The position numbers and the translations under genes were made by a program. From positions 1,488,001 through 1,552,000 of the forward strand of contig NZ_JAYEZO010000001.1 in NCBI RefSeq assembly GCF_037031285.1: a stretch of DNA of 64,000 nt, given 5' to 3'. This document shows, piece by piece, positions 27,191 to 37,066 of the stretch; the first letter of the stretch is position 1, and each line of letters opens with the position of its first letter. The stretch is from Halobellus sp. LT62 (GTDB lineage: Archaea; Halobacteriota; Halobacteria; Halobacteriales; Haloferacaceae). Under the pieces are notes generated by a model. The model saw nothing but the letters and a program-made list of their open reading frames with translations, was not told the origin of the DNA and did no database searches.

Positions 27191-28006
27191 TTACCGGAAG
27201 CGGTAGATCGCGAGCGCGCCGATAGCGACGATTCCGAGAAGGCCAGCGGGACCGTACAGAGTCGAGAAGCGGTCCGTCGAGAGCTCGTTCCCCCCGCTCT
27301 CTAGTTCCTCGGGGATCGCTTCGGCGGGGCCGTCGCCGCTGCCGGTGGAGGCATCGGAATCGTCGTCACCGCTCGATTCACTGCTCCCACCTGTGGACGA
27401 CTCGTCGGCGGCGTCACCGCTATCGTCGGCACCACTGTCGTCCTCGCTGTCATCGACGGGTTCCTCGACCGAATTCGAATCCGAGGAGTCCGAATCGTTC
27501 GACGACGATGCGTCATCGACCGTGAGCGTCGGTCGCTCGGCGTCCGCTACTGTGTAGGCGGCACCGTCTTCATCGCCCAACGCGCGCATATTCACGTCGA
27601 TCGCCGTCTCCCCGGCCGATTCGCCGCGGACGACGAGCGTCAGAACCGTGACGCGCCCCGTGTCGTCGGTGTCCACGAGTGCGGCGCTGACGTCGACGCC
27701 GTCGTCGCGTTCGGTGACGTTGTCGAGGCCGGGATCGCCGTGGATCGTCACGTCCTCGATGGACGCCACGTCCGGGTTCGAGAGCGTGACGGTCGCGTTG
27801 ATCGCGCCGACGCCATCGTCGGCGTTCTCGACGATCACGTCGACCTCAGTGGTCGCTCCCGAATCGAGGGTGTCGGCTTCCGGAGAGACGCCGAGATCGG
27901 TCGTGTCGGCGGCGGCCGCGACGCTGACCGCCCCGGCAAGGATCACGACGAGCGCAAGCGCGCACGCCGCGAATCGATTTCGACGTCGGGTCGTAGCCGC
28001 GGCCAT
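27191..28006 (-). CDS. Secreted cohesin-like domain protein with C-terminal membrane anchor
   Basis: A 271-residue cell-surface protein. An N-terminal signal peptide (FAACALALVVILAGAVSV) leads to one cohesin-like beta-sandwich (about 35-170) with VIVENADDGVGA and ALVDTDDTGRVTV. A 70-residue linker of Ser/Asp/Glu repeats follows, and the last 25 residues form a transmembrane helix (GPAGLLGIVAIGALAIYRF) that fixes it in the membrane with the cohesin outside. The cohesin-like domain is clearly paralogous to that of the protein upstream: both carry VxVENADxGVGA and DTDDTGxVTV. Only 6 bp separate the two genes. By analogy with cellulosomes it would be an anchoring scaffold that binds a dockerin, but binding is not shown. 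Confidence 0.85.
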   Translation of the reverse strand: MAAATTRRRNRFAACALALVVILAGAVSVAAAADTTDLGVSPEADTLDSGATTEVDVIVENADDGVGAINATVTLSNPDVASIEDVTIHGDPGLDNVTERDDGVDVSAALVDTDDTGRVTVLTLVVRGESAGETAIDVNMRALGDEDGAAYTVADAERPTLTVDDASSSNDSDSSDSNSVEEPVDDSEDDSGADDSGDAADESSTGGSSESSGDDDSDASTGSGDGPAEAIPEELESGGNELSTDRFSTLYGPAGLLGIVAIGALAIYRFR

Positions 28007-28012
28007 CGTCGA

Positions 28013-30004
28013 TCAGGCGACCTCCTCGTAGTAGAGCGTCTGCACGTCGAGAATGTCGAACTCGCCGTCGCCGTTGAAGTCGAAGGCGTCGGACGAGTCT
28101 TGGACGACGCCGCTGTCCCGCTCGGCGAACAGGAGCTGGACGTCCAGTTCGTCGACGGTGCCGTCACCGTTCACGTCCTCGTAGACGCCGTCGTTGTCGG
28201 GGTCCTGCGCGGGTTGTTCGGACGCGCCGACCACGAGCTCGGAGACACTGAGCGACGCGCCGTTGGTCTCCGTGACCTCGTACGGCTCGCCGGACTCGGT
28301 GCCGAGACTGGAGACATCGAGCGCGAGGTCGGTCGCGCCGTCGGACTCGCCGTCGACGGTCACGGTCGCGACGGTCACGGAGCCGGTGTCGTCGGTATCG
28401 AGCAGCGCCACGTCGGCGCTCGCCGAACTCCCGTCGCCCGCGACTTGGACGTCCGAGAGCGGGCCGTCGGCCGACATCTCGGAGATCGTCGCGGTCGACG
28501 TGTCGTCGACCGAGACGCCGAGGCTGTACGCGCCGACGCCGCCGTCGGCGTTCTCGACGACCACGTCGAACGTCGTCGAGCCGTTCACCGCGACGAGTTC
28601 GTCATCGGGTGACAGCGACACCGCCGTCGACAGTCCGGGTTCGGGCTCCGAGGGCTCACTGACCGTCACGGTCTCGGTGACCGTGTCGGTCGCGCCGTCG
28701 TCGTCGGTGACGGTCAGTTCGACCGTGTAGTCACCTGCCGAGTCGTACGCGTTCGTGGCTGTCTCACCGGTAGCCGTTTCACCGTCGCCGAAGTCCCACT
28801 CGTAGCTCGCGATCGAGCCGTCGGAATCCGTCGACGCCGAGGCGTCGAACGTCACCGTCTCACCCGTTTCCGGGTCCGCGGGTGACGAACTGAACGCCGC
28901 CGTGGGATCCTGATTCTCCGGGGGCTGCTCGGTCACGGCGAGCGTGCCGGTCGCGCTGTCGTCGTCGGTCGAGAGCGTCACGTCGTGATCGCCCACCGAG
29001 AGACCGCTGGTATCGACGTCGAAGCTCACCTGCTGGCTCGCGTCGCCGTCGAGCGTGACGGACTGACTGTCGACTTCGCTGCCGTCGACGTCGAGCGCGA
29101 CCGTTTGCGTGCCGGACTCGTCGCCGACGTTCTCGACTGTCGCGGTCACTTCGGCGTCGCTCCCCTGCTCGACCGGCGACTCGATATCGAGTGCCGAGAG
29201 CTGGAAGCTCGCCGGATCAGGCTGCGGCGGCGCGCTCACGGAGACGGTCTGCGTCGTCGTGTCGGTCGCGCCGTCGTCGTCGGTGACGGTCAGTTCGACC
29301 GTGTAGTCACCTGCCGAGTCGTATTCGTGTGTCGGCGACTCACCGCTGTCGGTCTCGCCGTCGCCGAAGTCCCACGCGTAGGAGGCGATCGAGCCGTCCG
29401 CGTCACTGGATCCGGACGCGTCGAAGGAGACCGTCTCACCCGCTTCGGGCGAGGACGGACTCGCGGTGAAGGACGCCGAGGGATCCTCATTCTGGTCAGG
29501 ATCTTCGACGGTGATGGTCGTCTCTGTTGAAGCTATCTCGTCGTCCTCGTTCGCGACGGCGTCATCGTCGGTCGGGTCCACGCCGGATCCCGTCGCCGAG
29601 ATCGCGTACTCGCCGGGGGCCGCGTCTTCCGGCACCTGTAGCTCGGTCGTGACCTCGTAGGTCCCCGAACTGAGCCACAGGACCGACGGGGAGTTCGACG
29701 GAAGAGCGTTGCCAGTATTGTCCTGCGGACTCGCAGTTCCACCGTCCGAGTCAGTCACCGTGCCTTCCCAACCGTCCGGGAACTCCAACTCGACGAGCGG
29801 ACCGTTAACGTCCTCCGTTGTCAGCGTCGTCGTGATGGTCACCGTATCGCCGGAATTGACCGTCGTGTTGTCTGCTGTCTGCTCGATCGAGACACTCGGA
29901 TCGGCCGCCACCGTCCCAACTGGTCCGAAGACCGAGAGGACGATCGTGAGCGCGACGAGCGCCGCGATCGACTGTCTGAGATATCCGTGTACTGTGTCGT
30001 TCAT
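28013..30004 (-). CDS. Secreted PKD/CARDB/cohesin-like protein ending in a dockerin
   Basis: A 663-residue secreted modular protein: signal peptide (1-32), an N-terminal Ig-like sheet (about 35-150), a PKD domain (about 162-255, SYAWDFGDGETDSGESPTHE), a CARDB-type sheet (about 260-355), a second PKD (about 365-460), a cohesin-like domain (about 465-595) and a dockerin (about 600-660). The dockerin has two calcium loops, DVNGDGTVDELDV and DFNGDGEFDILDV, each with the D-x-N-G-D-G-x-x-D-x-x-D pattern. It therefore combines a docking module and a cohesin-like receptor, like an adaptor scaffoldin. The start ATG is followed directly by VHGYLRQSIAALVALT, an export signal. No catalytic domain is recognised. 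Confidence 0.88.
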   Translation of the reverse strand: MNDTVHGYLRQSIAALVALTIVLSVFGPVGTVAADPSVSIEQTADNTTVNSGDTVTITTTLTTEDVNGPLVELEFPDGWEGTVTDSDGGTASPQDNTGNALPSNSPSVLWLSSGTYEVTTELQVPEDAAPGEYAISATGSGVDPTDDDAVANEDDEIASTETTITVEDPDQNEDPSASFTASPSSPEAGETVSFDASGSSDADGSIASYAWDFGDGETDSGESPTHEYDSAGDYTVELTVTDDDGATDTTTQTVSVSAPPQPDPASFQLSALDIESPVEQGSDAEVTATVENVGDESGTQTVALDVDGSEVDSQSVTLDGDASQQVSFDVDTSGLSVGDHDVTLSTDDDSATGTLAVTEQPPENQDPTAAFSSSPADPETGETVTFDASASTDSDGSIASYEWDFGDGETATGETATNAYDSAGDYTVELTVTDDDGATDTVTETVTVSEPSEPEPGLSTAVSLSPDDELVAVNGSTTFDVVVENADGGVGAYSLGVSVDDTSTATISEMSADGPLSDVQVAGDGSSASADVALLDTDDTGSVTVATVTVDGESDGATDLALDVSSLGTESGEPYEVTETNGASLSVSELVVGASEQPAQDPDNDGVYEDVNGDGTVDELDVQLLFAERDSGVVQDSSDAFDFNGDGEFDILDVQTLYYEEVA

Positions 30005-30199: not shown

Positions 30200-33100
30200 C
30201 TACTGGGAGCCGTCCTCCGATTCGATGATCTCGATGGCTCTGATCTCCGCATTCTCGGCCTCTCCTTTCTCGAAGTCGATCGTGATCGTGCCGTCGCCGT
30301 TCTCGGTCGCCGTGAACTCCTCCATCGTCCCCGTCGCGTGACCGGCGTCGGCCACGGGGTCGTACTGCGTCAGCACTTGATCGTCCTCGATGGAGACGTT
30401 GAACTGCCGGTCGCCGGGTTCTGAGGCCCCGGAGAACGAGTTGGCGAAGTAGAGCCGAACGTCGACCGTCGCGCCGGAGTCGACGTCGAACTCCCACGTG
30501 GAGTTCCCGTACCGCTCGCAGTTCCAGACCCCGTCGGGCGTCGATTCGGGCACGGTTCCGTCCGGCGAGACCGCGTCGCCGCCGCAGTAGTTATCGGCGC
30601 TGGAACTCGCGACCGACACGAGGTACGTCGAACTCGTGTCGGCGACGCCAGTCCAGTCGGGGCCGTCGTCAGTCGCGGAGACGGTCGTGCTCTCACCGGC
30701 GTTCACGCGGTGGAGGACCTGCGCGGGTTGCGGATCGTCGCCGTCGCCGGCACTCTCGTCGTACTTCAATACCACCGCGTTCGACGTTTCGCCGGTGTTT
30801 CCGCTCTCGTCCTGCTCGGCCGCGACGAAGTAGTTGAAGCCGCCCTCAGCGCCGCTGGACGACGTGTTGGTGAGAGTGACGTCGACCGTCGCCTCGCCGT
30901 TCGAGTCGAGCTGGACCGTCTGGTAGTCGACGTTTTCGGCCGTATTCGCCTCGTAGGCTTCGAGATCGTACCCGTCTGCCTGGTTAGCGAGTTCGAGTTG
31001 TCCCTCCACGTGGAGGAGTTCCACGGTCGCGCCGGGCTGTCCGGAGACCGTGACTGTCTGGCTGGCCTCGGAGACCGTCGCTGCGCTGTGGCGCGCGTCG
31101 AGATCGCCGTCGTCGAGTGAGACGTCTTGGGCTCCGAGGGTCGGCGCAGTCGGGACGCTCTCAGTCGCAGCGGCCTGTGAGCCGCCGCTGCTTCCGTCAC
31201 CGAACAGACTCGTGGTCTGTGTGGACCCGTCGGCGTACTCGACGGTCACGGTCGCGCCCGCGAGTTCCAGTCCGGAGACGGAGCCGGCTGCCCCGGTCCC
31301 GTCCGCGTTCTTGATACTCGTCGGGTCGATGTCCGTCGAGAACGCGAACGTCTCGCCGCTCTCGAAGTCGGCGAAGTCGATGACCAGTTCGTCGTACCCG
31401 TCGTCGCCGTCTTGGTCGTTATGCGGCGCGGCGAACGACCCCGATGGGTCGACCGCGCTCTCGCCGCTGTCCGGCGTGAAGCCCTTCGCACCCGCGTCGC
31501 CCGCGGTTCCCTGCGGGTCGAAGACCACGTCGGGGAACGCCGCGGAACTCAGATCGTAGGTGACGGAGGTGATCTCCTGATCGCCGGTGTTGGTGATCTC
31601 GAAGGAGCCGCCGTTGAACGTGCTCGCGTCGATGCCGCTGTTCTCGTTGACCGCGAAGTCTGCAGAGGCGGTGGCGTCACCGGAGCCACCGTCCGCGTCC
31701 GCCTCAGAGACCTCGATCGCGCTGATCTTCGCGTTGTCGTAGGTCGCCGCGAAGTCGAGGTTCAGTTCGCCGTCGGTGATCTCGGCCGTGAACGTCTCCT
31801 CGGTCGCCGTCAGCGGACCGACCTCGGCGAAGAGGTCGTAGTTCGTGAGTACCTGCTCGTCTTCGACGCTCACGTTGAACAGCCGGTCGTTCTCGTTCGT
31901 GCCGTCGTCCGGCCCGGTCGAGTCGGGCGAATCGCTGTCGGCGACGCCTTGGTAAATCTCGGCGAAGTGGAGAGTGACCTCGTACTCGCCGTCATCGAGC
32001 GGGACGTCGTAACTCAGCGGTTCGGAGTCGGGCGCGCCGCCGTAGCGCTCCGTCTGGTACAACGCGTCGTCCGTCGTCCCGTCGATCGGCTCCGTCGTGC
32101 TGTAGGTGCTGCCGCCGTCGAAGTTGGTGTCGGCTTGGTAGACGGTACCGTCCGAAGCCGTGTACTCGTCGCCGCCGCCGTTCACCGCGAAGACGACGTC
32201 ACCCGGCTGATCGGGCTCGCCGTCGCCGTCACCGGCGCTCTCGTCGTACTTCAGGACGACCGCGTTCGAGTCGAGACCGGTGTCGGAACCGGGCTCTCCC
32301 TGGGTCGCCACGAAGTAGTTGTAGCCGCCGACTTCGGTCGAGTTGAGAAGCGTGACGGGCACGTCGGCCTCGCCGTTCGAGTCGAGCGTGACCGTCTCGT
32401 AGTTCACCTGCTCGATCTTGTTGGCCTCGTAGGCCTCGATGTCGTAGCCGGGCGTGCCGTCGTACTCGGGGACGTTGCTCAGTTCGAGTTCGGCCTCGAA
32501 GTGCAGCAGCGTGGCAGTCTCGCCGGGTTCGCCCGTGACGGTCACGGTCTGGTCGGCCTCGCCAACGGTGGCCGCGCTGTGGTGGTCGCGGAGCGCGCCG
32601 TCGTCGAGGTCGACGTTCTGCACGTCGATGCTCGGTGCCGCTGGGACCGACTCGTCGAGCGTCGCTTGGACGCCGCCCGCGCTGCCATCACCGAACAGCT
32701 GGGTCTCTTGGACCCCTCCGTCGGCGTATTCGGCGCTCACCGTCGAGCGGACGAGTTCGAGACCGGAGATCGGGCCGGCCTCTTGGGAGCCGATGGTCGC
32801 GGCCTTGATGCTCGTCGGATCGTTGTCCGCCGAGAACGACACCGACTCACCGGGGTCGAAGTCGTCGAACTCGACGGTCATCACGTCGTAGCCGTCGGAG
32901 CCGTTCACGCCGTTGTGCGGCTGGCTGAACACGTCATCGTCGTCGACGCTGACGACGCCGACGCCGTCACCCGACTCCGAGTCGATGTTCAGTCCCTTCG
33001 CGGCCTGGTCGCCGGCGGTCCCGTCGGGGTCGAACACCACGTCGGGCATCGCCGACGACGAGAGGTCGAAGGTGACAGACGTTATCTGCTGGTCGCCGGT

Positions 33101-36100
33101 GTTCGTTACCTCGAAGGAGCCACCGCCGTAGGTGGACGCTTCGACGCCCGAATCGGGCGTGATCTCGACGGACGCCGAGCCGGTCGTCTCGTTGCCGCCG
33201 TCACCATCTTGCTCGACGACTGCTTCGGTCGCCCACATATTGACGAGCGTCTGGATCTCGGAGTTGCCGATGGTCTGTTCGCCGGTGTTCGGCACGTCGC
33301 TTCCGGTGGCCCACCAGTTGGTCGCCTGCTGGATCTCGGAGTTCTCGATCAGCGAGTCGTTCTCGCCGCCCATCGCCACCGATTGGGTGATAGTCAGATC
33401 GCCGTCGGTCGGTTCACCCGGACCGTCGTCCGTCGGCTGGACCGTCACGTCGACCGTGTCGGTGTCGCTGTCCTGCCCGTCGGAGACGCTGACTTGGAAG
33501 GTGAACGTCGTTTCCGACTCGACGTCGGGCGCGGTGAACGACACCTGCTCGCCGTCGCTCATATCGAGCAGCCCGTCGGGGGTTCCGGCGGTCTGCGTCC
33601 ACGTGTAACCGAGCGCGCTATCGTCGCCGTCGGGATCGGTCGATCCCGAGGCGTCGAGCGTGACCTGTTGGCCCGCGTCGACAGTGACGTCAGCGCCCGC
33701 GTCGGCCTCCGGCGGCTGGTTCTCCGGCGCGTTCACGTACTCGACGTCGAGGTTCGTCCACGTGGCGTCGAACGTCGAACCGGCTTGGTAGGACGTCGAG
33801 ATGACGCCCACCGCGGTACCGGTGTCCGAACTGTTGAGCCACGATTCGGGGATCGTCGTCGAGCCGACGAACGTCTGCTCGCCGTCCTCGGGCGTGTAGT
33901 ACGCCTCGACGGTGTTGTTGCTCGGGTACACCGTCATTTGGAGGTCGGTGTCGCTGTCGGAGCCCGCGACGGCCGGATCGTCCGGCTGTTCGACGTTCTG
34001 GAAGTTCCCGTCGGTCTCGCCGGCGAACTGGATGCCGCCGCTGCCGCCGTTCGCGGCGGTGATGAGTTTCAGGTAGTTGTCCTGATCGCCGTTGCCGATG
34101 TGGATCCCCGCACCCTGGTAGTTCGTGGGATCTTCGGGGAGACCGTTCACCGTCGTCGAGACCGTGAACGGCTCCTCGGGCGCGTCGAATCCGCGCTGGA
34201 ACGCGTACTGCTGGTCGTTGTTCGTCGCGTCACCGGTCGGCACGTCTTCGACCGTGAGGACCTGCGCCGCGCCGCCGACCGTCAGCTGGTCGGGATCGTA
34301 GAGGTCCTGATAATCGGTCTCACCGTTCGTCATCAGGCCGGTCCAGCCCTGACCGTTCTCGCCGAACAGTTGCGTCTCCGAGAAGTCCATCTGGATCGGC
34401 AGGGTCGTCGACGTACCGTCGTCGGGATCCACGGCGAAGTGATCGCTCGTGTCGGGCTGTCCGTCGTTGTCGTCGTCGGGATCGTTCAGGTTCGATGTGC
34501 CGTCGTCGTCGAAGTCGGGGGGCGTCGAGGCGGCCGAGCACGGATCCGTGCCGGCATCGATCTCGTCGGCGTTGTCGTAGCCGTCGCCGTCCTCGTCGAG
34601 CGACGCGTCGTCGGCACCGGTACACACCGGATCGGTTCCGTCGCTGTCGTAGTCGTTCGGCTCGAACACGGTGAGATCACCGCGGGCGGTCCAGACGGTT
34701 CCCGGGAAGGGACCGTCGTCGCCCTGTGCGGCGATTCCCAGCGCGCTGAGGTCGCTGAAGAAGTTGCTCTCCTGATCGGTGACGCTCGTTCCGCCGGCGT
34801 CGAGTTGGACGCGCTCGACCGAACTGGAGCCGACGACGACGAGCAAGTCGCCCTGCATCGAACCGCCGAAGTTCGAGGCGGTGTACTCGTCCATTCCGCC
34901 GGTCCAGCCGAACGTGTCACCGAGGGAGTTGTCCTCGGAGGGGTCTTGGTAGTCGCACTCGATCGGGTTCACTTCCGAGGCGGGAACGGGGCTGTTCGAC
35001 TCGTTGATGTCGAAGATGACGTTCCCGTCGGCGTCGTAGATGTCAGCACCGGTCGGGTTCGCCCGGATCGGCGCGGGGTGACCGCCGTAGGAGTCCTCGG
35101 TCGCGAGGTGGAGCTGGTCACCGGAGCCGCCGCCGGGATCGTTCGGCTCGTTCGTACAGATTCCGCTCGGCCCCTCGTTGACGGGCTGGCCGCCCCAGCC
35201 GCCGTTGGGACCGTTGTCGATGACATAGAGCTGATCGCCTTCGGAGAGCACGAGGTCGTAGGGGTTCCGGTATCCGGTCGAGTAGACCTGCACCGGACCG
35301 TCCTCGACCCACTTGGCCTGGTTGATGCCGTCGTTGCCGCCGAAGGGCAGGTCGTCACCCTCCGTGCCGTCGTCGTTCTGGATCGTCGGGATCGCATACA
35401 GGAAGTCGAGGCTCGGATAGCTGCTGTCGTAGTCCTGCAGATCCTTCGCTTGGTAGTTCTGCTCGATCTGTGCCAGATCGATTTCGAGGACGGCCGCCGA
35501 CAGCGCGTACTCGGCCGTGTGGCCGAAGTTGTTACTCGGCGCTCCCTGGTTGGTGTGACCGCCCTGTGCGACGTACAGCGTCTCGCCGTCGTCGGCCAGA
35601 TCGAGTCCGTTCGTCGCGTGGTTCTCCTCCGAGCGCGGCAGCCCGAGCACCATCACGTCGTGCTCGACGCCGTTGAGGGTGTCTCCGCTACCCCAGTCGA
35701 ACGTAAGCCGGGAGATCGACCCCGAGTTAGTGTCGGTGTCGTCGTCGTCTTCTCCGACGTCGATTGTCGGGTCGCTGGAGGAGACGTACACGACCGGCTC
35801 CGCCGCCGTCCCGCCGACCGTCAGGCCGGTGATCTGGCGGTTAGTCTCGCCGGGGACGTAGGTCCCGAAGTCGTCGTGGTTCGGAATATCTTGGATAAGG
35901 TCGATCGACTCCTGCGATTCGACGCTGTAGTCGTTCTCGCCCTCGCGGGTAACGTTCAGCGCGTACACCATTCCGCTCTGCTGGGCGACGTAGAGCCGGT
36001 CGTCCGGACCGAATTCAAGCGCCGTCAGCGCGCCCTCACCGAAGCCCTGCAGGCTGCTCTTGCCGAAACCGACTTCCGCCGTGCTCGTTCCCGCTCCGGA

Positions 36101-37066
36101 GAGATCGACGCTCAGCGGGGAGTTGCTCCCCGAGTGATCGACTTCGAGCGTTCCCGATGCCGACTCGGCGTCCTCGGGCGCGAACGTCACGGGGACGTCC
36201 GCGGACTCGCCGGGGACGAGCGTCGTCTGCGACGCCGATCCCGCGGAGAACGCGCTGTCCCCGGAGACCGAGACGTCGTCGATCGTGATGTCGGCGTCGC
36301 CGTCGCCGCCGAGGTTCGTCAGCGTGACCGACTCTGTTTCGGTGTCGTCGACGAGCACGCTACCGAAGTCGACGGCGGACGGGCCGCCGAGCGTGTCGGG
36401 CTCGGGCTCGGACTCGACGATCTCGATCGCGCTGATCTTCGCGTTGTCCTCGACGTTCGTGAGATCGATGTCGATCTCGCCGTCGTCGGGCGTGACGGTG
36501 GAAGACTTCAGCACGCCGACGTCGTGACCGACGTCAGCGTGGATGTCGTAGCCGTCGAGCACCTGCTCGCCATCGACGGTGGCGTCGAAGACCCGCTCAC
36601 CGTCGGCGGTCTGGTAGATCTCCGCGAAGTAGAGGCGGACCTCGTACGTCTGGCCGCTCTCGACGCCGTCGGAGAACGTCCACTCCTGTTCGCCGTACAC
36701 TTCCGACTGGAACGCGCTTTCGGGCGTGTCAGCCGGAACTGAGGCGTCCAGCGAGATCGAGTCGCCGGTGTTGAACGTGGAGGTGCTACCGGAGTGGTAC
36801 TGCTCCCACTCGCCCGTCCAGTCGGGGCCGCTGTCCGCCGCGACGGTGTCGCCTCCCGCGTTTACGCGGGCGATCACCGCCCCTGCCGCGGTTGTGTCGT
36901 CTACTTGGGCCGCGGTCAGCGTCCCGTCGTTGATGTCTGTCGCGCGCACGTCGCCGTCGTGTGTGCCGGTCGCGGCCGACGCACCGGCGAGTCCCGCCAT
37001 CGGCGACGTGATCATAAATATCGCCGCCAAGAGGACTAACGCGCGCCTCGTCGTACTATTCGTCAT
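30200..37066 (-). CDS. Giant secreted mosaic protein: malectin-like, HYDIN-like, sugar-dehydrogenase propeller, LamG and PKD modules
   Basis: A 2288-residue extracellular protein. Order by residue: signal peptide 1-32; malectin-like 1 (64-217); HYDIN/ASPM-like sheet (225-325); glucose/sorbosone-dehydrogenase-type beta-propeller (335-800, GEGALTALEFGPDDRLYVA and ENHATNGLDLADDGETLYVA); thrombospondin-3-like Asp-rich calcium loops (805-880); LamG/DUF1080-like jelly roll (890-1113); PKD/REJ (1117-1212); a duplicated NSEIQxxxNxWAT helix pair (1235-1282); module R1 (1299-1610); malectin-like 2 (1625-1787); module R2 (1802-2105); malectin-like 3 (2115-2285). R1 and R2 are tandem-type duplicates (SGVEASTYGGGSFEVTNTGD against SGIDASTFNGGSFEITNTGD). 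Malectin and LamG parts bind glycans and the propeller may oxidise a sugar using PQQ or a metal, so a polysaccharide-active or adhesive surface role is inferred. No C-terminal anchor is present. Confidence 0.9.
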   Translation of the reverse strand: MTNSTTRRALVLLAAIFMITSPMAGLAGASAATGTHDGDVRATDINDGTLTAAQVDDTTAAGAVIARVNAGGDTVAADSGPDWTGEWEQYHSGSTSTFNTGDSISLDASVPADTPESAFQSEVYGEQEWTFSDGVESGQTYEVRLYFAEIYQTADGERVFDATVDGEQVLDGYDIHADVGHDVGVLKSSTVTPDDGEIDIDLTNVEDNAKISAIEIVESEPEPDTLGGPSAVDFGSVLVDDTETESVTLTNLGGDGDADITIDDVSVSGDSAFSAGSASQTTLVPGESADVPVTFAPEDAESASGTLEVDHSGSNSPLSVDLSGAGTSTAEVGFGKSSLQGFGEGALTALEFGPDDRLYVAQQSGMVYALNVTREGENDYSVESQESIDLIQDIPNHDDFGTYVPGETNRQITGLTVGGTAAEPVVYVSSSDPTIDVGEDDDDTDTNSGSISRLTFDWGSGDTLNGVEHDVMVLGLPRSEENHATNGLDLADDGETLYVAQGGHTNQGAPSNNFGHTAEYALSAAVLEIDLAQIEQNYQAKDLQDYDSSYPSLDFLYAIPTIQNDDGTEGDDLPFGGNDGINQAKWVEDGPVQVYSTGYRNPYDLVLSEGDQLYVIDNGPNGGWGGQPVNEGPSGICTNEPNDPGGGSGDQLHLATEDSYGGHPAPIRANPTGADIYDADGNVIFDINESNSPVPASEVNPIECDYQDPSEDNSLGDTFGWTGGMDEYTASNFGGSMQGDLLVVVGSSSVERVQLDAGGTSVTDQESNFFSDLSALGIAAQGDDGPFPGTVWTARGDLTVFEPNDYDSDGTDPVCTGADDASLDEDGDGYDNADEIDAGTDPCSAASTPPDFDDDGTSNLNDPDDDNDGQPDTSDHFAVDPDDGTSTTLPIQMDFSETQLFGENGQGWTGLMTNGETDYQDLYDPDQLTVGGAAQVLTVEDVPTGDATNNDQQYAFQRGFDAPEEPFTVSTTVNGLPEDPTNYQGAGIHIGNGDQDNYLKLITAANGGSGGIQFAGETDGNFQNVEQPDDPAVAGSDSDTDLQMTVYPSNNTVEAYYTPEDGEQTFVGSTTIPESWLNSSDTGTAVGVISTSYQAGSTFDATWTNLDVEYVNAPENQPPEADAGADVTVDAGQQVTLDASGSTDPDGDDSALGYTWTQTAGTPDGLLDMSDGEQVSFTAPDVESETTFTFQVSVSDGQDSDTDTVDVTVQPTDDGPGEPTDGDLTITQSVAMGGENDSLIENSEIQQATNWWATGSDVPNTGEQTIGNSEIQTLVNMWATEAVVEQDGDGGNETTGSASVEITPDSGVEASTYGGGSFEVTNTGDQQITSVTFDLSSSAMPDVVFDPDGTAGDQAAKGLNIDSESGDGVGVVSVDDDDVFSQPHNGVNGSDGYDVMTVEFDDFDPGESVSFSADNDPTSIKAATIGSQEAGPISGLELVRSTVSAEYADGGVQETQLFGDGSAGGVQATLDESVPAAPSIDVQNVDLDDGALRDHHSAATVGEADQTVTVTGEPGETATLLHFEAELELSNVPEYDGTPGYDIEAYEANKIEQVNYETVTLDSNGEADVPVTLLNSTEVGGYNYFVATQGEPGSDTGLDSNAVVLKYDESAGDGDGEPDQPGDVVFAVNGGGDEYTASDGTVYQADTNFDGGSTYSTTEPIDGTTDDALYQTERYGGAPDSEPLSYDVPLDDGEYEVTLHFAEIYQGVADSDSPDSTGPDDGTNENDRLFNVSVEDEQVLTNYDLFAEVGPLTATEETFTAEITDGELNLDFAATYDNAKISAIEVSEADADGGSGDATASADFAVNENSGIDASTFNGGSFEITNTGDQEITSVTYDLSSAAFPDVVFDPQGTAGDAGAKGFTPDSGESAVDPSGSFAAPHNDQDGDDGYDELVIDFADFESGETFAFSTDIDPTSIKNADGTGAAGSVSGLELAGATVTVEYADGSTQTTSLFGDGSSGGSQAAATESVPTAPTLGAQDVSLDDGDLDARHSAATVSEASQTVTVSGQPGATVELLHVEGQLELANQADGYDLEAYEANTAENVDYQTVQLDSNGEATVDVTLTNTSSSGAEGGFNYFVAAEQDESGNTGETSNAVVLKYDESAGDGDDPQPAQVLHRVNAGESTTVSATDDGPDWTGVADTSSTYLVSVASSSADNYCGGDAVSPDGTVPESTPDGVWNCERYGNSTWEFDVDSGATVDVRLYFANSFSGASEPGDRQFNVSIEDDQVLTQYDPVADAGHATGTMEEFTATENGDGTITIDFEKGEAENAEIRAIEIIESEDGSQ

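Follow-up and report, generated by a model that had tools for sequence, protein, structure and literature searches.

Three adjacent genes of Halobellus sp. LT62 on balance probably encode a non-cellulosomal surface display assembly of the cohesin/dockerin type. They lie in a stretch of 64,000 nucleotides (assembly GCF_037031285.1, contig NZ_JAYEZO010000001.1, positions 1,488,001 to 1,552,000; hereafter the window), and the nearest named relatives are Halobellus species. All three are on the minus strand and are transcribed in the order P3, P2, P1, with gaps of 195 bp between P3 and P2 and 6 bp between P2 and P1. Judging from sequence comparison and structure prediction, the dockerin that ends the adaptor protein P2 would sit in the cohesin of P1, and the giant secreted protein P3 would be held by a duplicated loop-helix module (DL) bound to the N-terminal domain of P2 (P2N). 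More tentatively, at somewhat under an even chance, we propose that DL/P2N is a second, previously unrecognised haloarchaeal plug-and-socket pair outside the cohesin/dockerin family, which would take the place of the cohesin/dockerin of sister loci and give one adaptor two orthogonal, exchangeable docking systems.

A first-pass annotation made from the DNA letters had proposed two genes 6 bp apart, one for a cohesin-like domain on a long acidic linker with a C-terminal transmembrane anchor, the other for PKD, CARDB and cohesin-like domains followed by a terminal dockerin with two perfect calcium loops. Position, strand, the 6-bp gap and both architectures agreed with our analysis. Overlooked at that stage were P2N (P2 amino acids (aa) 31-170) and DL (P3 aa 1219-1290).

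Cohesins and dockerin of P1 and P2

Pfam is blind to the cohesin-like domains of P1 and P2: its cohesin family PF00963 gave no match in these window proteins, in the whole genome or in the domain families. Thus, they can be identified as cohesins only by their fold and by comparison of profiles. Sequence searches of the PDB with P1 alone or with the P1 family profile returned nothing useful, and with a profile of the P2 C-terminus most matches were to dockerins and further proteins of the EF-hand type, and none to a cohesin. The P1 and P2 domains are homologous to each other (BLASTP, 9e-14). When aligned by hhalign with 29 Pfam-positive haloarchaeal cohesins, the local cohesin family scored 96% (P 2e-9, 125 columns); among the controls, PKD, CARDB and malectin scored at most 12% and P2N 73%. 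Finally, an AlphaFold model of P2 aa 455-663, compared by Foldseek, had cohesins as all of its top 39 PDB matches (E down to 8e-9). The second match was the Archaeoglobus fulgidus non-cellulosomal cohesin 2xdh (E 9e-9). The model of this C-terminus was only moderately confident (pLDDT, predicted local distance difference test, 75; range over five models 47-75). Because of the mutual homology, the profile match and the Foldseek result, we conclude that by predicted fold and profile both domains are divergent cohesins, the fold being given by the model for P2 and by homology to P2 for P1.

The C-terminal module of P2 is, from its sequence, a genuine type I dockerin with predicted calcium binding. 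Each of its EF-hand-type calcium loops is followed by a helix (165-173 and 197-208, numbered as in the AlphaFold model), and two such loops never arose in the tail when P2 was shuffled 20,000 times. It is the sole Pfam dockerin of the whole genome, in which the local cohesin profile found two cohesins, one on P1 and one on P2. With one dockerin and two cohesins, the partner of the P2 dockerin should be either P1, by way of its cohesin, or another copy of P2. Minimal loci, in which one dockerin protein stands beside one cohesin protein (L190, where a membrane helix is present, and L178), favour a P1-type anchor as the partner.

P1 itself looks like a membrane anchor. With regard to attachment at the cell surface, it has a predicted signal peptide and a predicted C-terminal membrane helix, followed by RFR, and the linker ahead of the helix is composed of 33% D/E and 31% S/T. 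Three anchor homologues (L149:3370-6138, L150:2163-5345 and L067:8362-11799) end in repeats such as TRDEIAQAKYGYDFDELSDETSREVEELYNRQPFADG instead of a membrane helix; these repeats are perhaps an alternative means of cell-surface attachment.

DL, P2N and the exchange of modules across haloarchaea

P2N follows the signal peptide of P2. As a domain alone, it matched Pfam PF10633 (NEW3/NPCBM_assoc) with 25.9 bits against a cut-off of 24.4, over 24 aligned residues, and all 29 members of the P2N family matched PF10633 at E up to 0.1. The idea that P2N is a distant cohesin meets a divided result, since its profile scored 73% against the Pfam cohesins yet 6% against the local ones.

The AlphaFold model of DL (pLDDT 89) consists of two loop-helix units. 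It resembled no known structure, with no Foldseek match below E 5. Compared with dockerins, DL gave an hhalign E of 0.38 and no Pfam dockerin match, and Pfam found no canonical dockerin on P3. Elsewhere, DL terminates a trypsin-like protease and a calcineurin-like phosphoesterase, and another DL-ended protein looks like a polysaccharide deacetylase. Locus L207 (2291-3256, genome G064) encodes a protein in which P2N occurs twice and the C-terminal tail, YDTDENNEIGTTEALAGISAWQHGSLNTQNALAIIAAWQ, has a single complete EF-hand loop as well as a helix pair resembling that of DL; this tail might connect DL with dockerins.

In P3, the GSDH (glucose/sorbosone dehydrogenase) family PF07995 was found in 16 of 17 homologues (best 5e-7), and the P3 of the window scored 0.0012, below the cut-off. 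Pfam found no glycoside hydrolase domain in P1, P2 or P3, and because P3 lacks one and its propeller is only weakly GSDH-like, we rejected P3 as a glycoside hydrolase. The sequence of the propeller and malectin domains suggests sugar or glycan binding, or oxidation.

The comparative sample consisted of 292 Halobacteria genomes. The three-gene cassette of P3, P2 and P1 is shared by Halobellus, Halorubrum, Halorussus and other genera, and was in one case on a plasmid. A P2-like cohesin-dockerin tandem, or part of one, is present in 131 of the genomes, and Pfam cohesins in 117; in nine genomes (this one and eight others) the P2 dockerin is the sole Pfam dockerin.

Across these loci, the start of P2 changes together with the protein that it would carry. 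In all five loci that have a dockerin-ended giant or malectin protein (L064, L154, L177, L195 and L202), an additional cohesin replaces P2N at the start of P2, an arrangement seen in none of 19 other loci. The four that were put in a tree form one clade (support 100/100). In these 19 loci DL is found on P3 or on other giant proteins, P2 has no N-terminal cohesin, and P2N is there in nearly all. L154 contains a DL giant as well as a malectin protein that ends in a dockerin. In L150 (G117:C2:580000-599000), one of the 19, P3 is split into a gene for the propeller half, with a dockerin at its end, and a gene for the DL half, with a cohesin at its start; here nature has run an experiment of its own, a docking pair seemingly standing in place of a peptide bond. 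Such exchanges are what would be expected if the modules join proteins, which points to the P2 N-terminus as the docking place of P3 and hence to P2N as the putative receptor of DL.

The distribution of DL and P2N is consistent with this. Four operons have at least two DL proteins, and these same four are the ones whose P2 carries two P2N domains; in the 16 operons with one DL, P2 has a single P2N or none. DL occurs in 28 of the sampled genomes and P2N in 30, and 21 genomes have both (P 2e-19); among genomes that lack the cassette, five share the two (P 1e-4). Furthermore, genes for a P2N protein with a C-terminal membrane helix (P2N-TM) and for a DL protein are adjacent, apart from any cassette, in L161, L203, L204, L206 and L208. 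Because L161, L203, L204 and L208 resemble one orthologous pair, they count as one or two events rather than four. Two genomes with such pairs, G168 and G252, had no detected cohesin or dockerin. Taken together, these comparisons suggest that DL probably binds P2N.

A proposed assembly and its alternatives

In the assembly that we propose, P1 is predicted to reside in the membrane, holding its cohesin outward on the acidic stalk. The dockerin at the C-terminus of P2, presumably calcium-dependent, would plug into this cohesin, and the opposite end of P2 would capture P3, most likely by the fit of P2N on DL that the comparative evidence suggests. P3 would thereby be displayed at the cell surface. 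The P2 cohesin would stay free and could take the dockerin of a second P2, giving chains or branches.

Several points weigh against this assembly, among them the failure of Pfam to recognise the cohesins and the moderate confidence of the P2 model, given above. Because neither profile nor fold comparison gave DL a significant resemblance to dockerins, its docking role is one that we infer. The C-terminal cohesin of P2 is left with no assigned partner. Since the loci are related, their counts do not represent independent events, and the four operons with a double P2N may share a single origin with transfer. Some DL proteins have no P2N gene nearby (L156, L163, L209 and L211). Finally, beta sandwiches of the P2N type are common, and P2N is also found inside DL proteins.

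The unassigned P2 cohesin could be accounted for if P2 self-polymerises, the dockerin of one P2 entering the cohesin of the next and the last member entering the cohesin of P1, with P3 joined otherwise or not at all. We regard this as possible but somewhat doubtful. The P2 cohesin has just one dockerin in the genome to take, P2's own, and the tandem of 131 of the 292 genomes is often present on several proteins per locus (L172, L173). In addition, conservation within P1 and P2 is highest in the P2 cohesin and dockerin: identity to the two nearest congeners is 84-86% for the tandem and 88-89% for the dockerin, compared with 72-73% for the P1 cohesin. However, self-polymerisation leaves unexplained both the conserved P1 and P3 genes and the exchange of the N-terminal receptor together with the tail of P3. 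A chain of P2 is compatible with the proposed display assembly, to which it could be an addition.

Another reading takes the DL of P3 to be a degenerate dockerin bound by the P2 cohesin, with P2N a mere spacer, and we think this unlikely. Like a dockerin, DL is a duplicated loop-helix that is often placed at the C-terminus of secreted proteins, and by elimination the P2 cohesin has no other partner in the genome. However, neither profile nor fold connects DL with dockerins; the C-terminal cohesin of P2 is kept almost unchanged in G011, where no DL was found, which weakens it as the receptor of DL; and DL is present in G252 and G168, where no cohesins were detected.

It is similarly improbable that the proteins are assembled from ordinary adhesion modules, the dockerin binding calcium or substrate and no cohesin, as has been proposed for haloarchaeal mannanases. 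Although the dockerins of the Natronoglomus enzymes are taken to be substrate-binding (PMC10963439), and PKD, CARDB, NEW3 and malectin have folds that serve in adhesion or glycan binding, such a reading is at odds with the cohesin fold, with the cohesin and dockerin genes being neighbours throughout, and with the extra cohesin being exchanged together with the extra dockerin. That the proteins form a real cellulosome, bringing enzymes for polysaccharide breakdown to the haloarchaeal cell, is very improbable: anchor, adaptor and docking module are all there and P3 bears malectin domains, but the sole dockerin of the genome sits on P2 itself, which rules out a cellulosome of dockerin-bearing enzymes here, cohesins stand one per protein, and P1 to P3 have no glycoside hydrolase domain.

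Known cohesin/dockerin systems and other loci

The first-pass annotation had noted that cohesins and dockerins are known from some archaea, and this is the case for A. fulgidus and for anaerobic methanotrophic archaea (ANME). For the same reason, and because Pfam cohesins are widespread in the sample, its description of a new kind of assembly does not hold as worded. Nor does the term cellulosome-style in its strict sense. The genes share with the bacterial cellulosome both folds and the logic of anchor, dockerin-cohesin adaptor and docking module, whereas this genome has no multi-cohesin scaffoldin, no dockerin-bearing glycoside hydrolase or other enzyme, and a single dockerin. The envisaged coupling to P3 stands insofar as the gene linkage is conserved, but the P2 dockerin would not be the coupler here, DL/P2N being likelier.

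In A. fulgidus, a cohesin protein and a cohesin-plus-dockerin protein are encoded side by side, and the archaeal cohesin fold is shared (2xdh, second in Foldseek). The proteins described here differ in being high-salt and acidic, and A. fulgidus is not known to have DL, P2N or a cassette of three genes that includes a giant protein of the malectin/propeller kind. Its non-cellulosomal cohesin and dockerin proteins are attributed to Bayer 1999 and Voronov-Goldman 2011, as cited in PMC9012536 and PMC9705933. Archaeal cohesin/dockerin pairs have been reported to bind strongly (PMC9012536). ANME likewise have proteins that combine a dockerin with cohesins, for which a role in arranging surface proteins, unrelated to the breakdown of cellulose, has been proposed (PMC9012536, PMC5244752), but there the dockerins are many, with up to five cohesins per protein, compared with one dockerin and single cohesins here. 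Haloarchaeal enzymes with a type I dockerin include the Natronoglomus GH26 (glycoside hydrolase family 26) mannanases (PMC10963439) and a GAG (glycosaminoglycan) lyase (PMC13260240), for which substrate binding was proposed and cohesin is unmentioned. These are also secreted haloarchaeal proteins; in contrast, the dockerin of P2 is on an adaptor beside an anchored cohesin and not on an enzyme.

We found no description of a haloarchaeal cohesin/dockerin assembly in the open-access literature, to which our search was limited. As far as we searched, archaeal cohesin/dockerin pairs are thus known already, and the conserved cassette with an exchangeable second docking pair is apparently undescribed. 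What cohesins and dockerins do when they are not part of a cellulosome has been termed unknown (PMC5244752). Because the cassette is near the minimum size (one dockerin, two cohesins, three adjacent genes) and occurs in haloarchaea that include culturable species, this non-cellulosomal function is directly testable. If the DL-P2N pair is real, it would be a new docking module for high salt, useful for protein display, and would help explain how haloarchaea keep large proteins on their surface.

Table 1. Features of the three genes, with positions in the window.
Feature	Position	Strand	Basis
P1, anchored cohesin protein, 271 aa	27191..28006	-	Open reading frame; cohesin homology to P2; conserved P2 neighbour in relatives
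P1 signal peptide region, aa 1-32	27911..28006	-	Hydrophobic stretch aa 15-33
P1 cohesin-like domain, aa 33-168	27503..27910	-	BLASTP to P2 cohesin 9e-14; COH profile 1e-48 (profile includes the P1 sequence)
P1 acidic S/T-rich linker, aa 166-240	27287..27511	-	Composition
P1 C-terminal transmembrane helix (predicted), aa ~250-268	27203..27259	-	Hydropathy 1.8 over 19 residues
P2, adaptor, P2N-PKD-CARDB-PKD-cohesin-dockerin, 663 aa	28013..30004	-	Open reading frame and domain searches
P2N, N-terminal NEW3-like domain, aa 31-170; candidate DL receptor	29495..29914	-	Pfam NPCBM_assoc; copy number and co-occurrence with DL
P2 PKD 1, aa 172-255	29240..29491	-	Pfam PKD_4
P2 CARDB, aa 275-350	28955..29182	-	Pfam, 29.3 bits (cut-off 22.7)
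P2 PKD 2, aa 363-449	28658..28918	-	Pfam
P2 cohesin-like domain, aa 457-592	28229..28636	-	AlphaFold/Foldseek; hhalign to haloarchaeal cohesins
P2 type I dockerin, aa 598-663	28016..28213	-	Pfam Dockerin_1, 30.9 bits (cut-off 22.9)
Dockerin calcium loop 1, DVNGDGTVDELD, aa 610-621	28142..28177	-	
Dockerin calcium loop 2, DFNGDGEFDILD, aa 642-653	28046..28081	-	
P3, giant secreted protein, 2288 aa: malectin, beta-propeller (GSDH-like), PKD, DL, repeated domains	30200..37066	-	
P3 GSDH-like propeller region, aa 331-810	34637..36076	-	PF07995 in homologues
P3 malectin domain, aa 1623-1790 (P3 has three such stretches)	31697..32200	-	Pfam Malectin 9e-63
DL, duplicated loop-helix module, P3 aa 1219-1290; candidate P2N ligand	33197..33412	-	Family alignment; AlphaFold

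Other arrangements of cohesins and dockerins were seen at further loci. The minimal pair of L190 (L190:32-6013) is from a Candidatus Aenigmatarchaeota (DPANN-type) metagenome-assembled genome, in which a 1793-aa dockerin protein adjoins a 199-aa cohesin protein with a strong terminal membrane helix. In genome G235, 14 matches to cohesins and 15 to dockerins were found. L081 (G086:C1:469000-488900) is a cluster of about 20 kb in which one protein of 1258 aa has eight Pfam cohesins in tandem, followed by a membrane helix at the C-terminus. Its neighbours there are four dockerin-ended subtilases, each of which also has cohesins according to the local profile, and further proteins with cohesins; the 1258-aa protein looks like a haloarchaeal scaffoldin for proteases. 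Cohesin-dockerin-like matches were also found on plasmids, on a 5'-nucleotidase of Halarchaeum (NZ_CP054708.1, hit H3) and on an alkaline phosphatase PhoX of Salarchaeum (NZ_CP042240.1, hit H5), which suggests phosphatases as further cargo.

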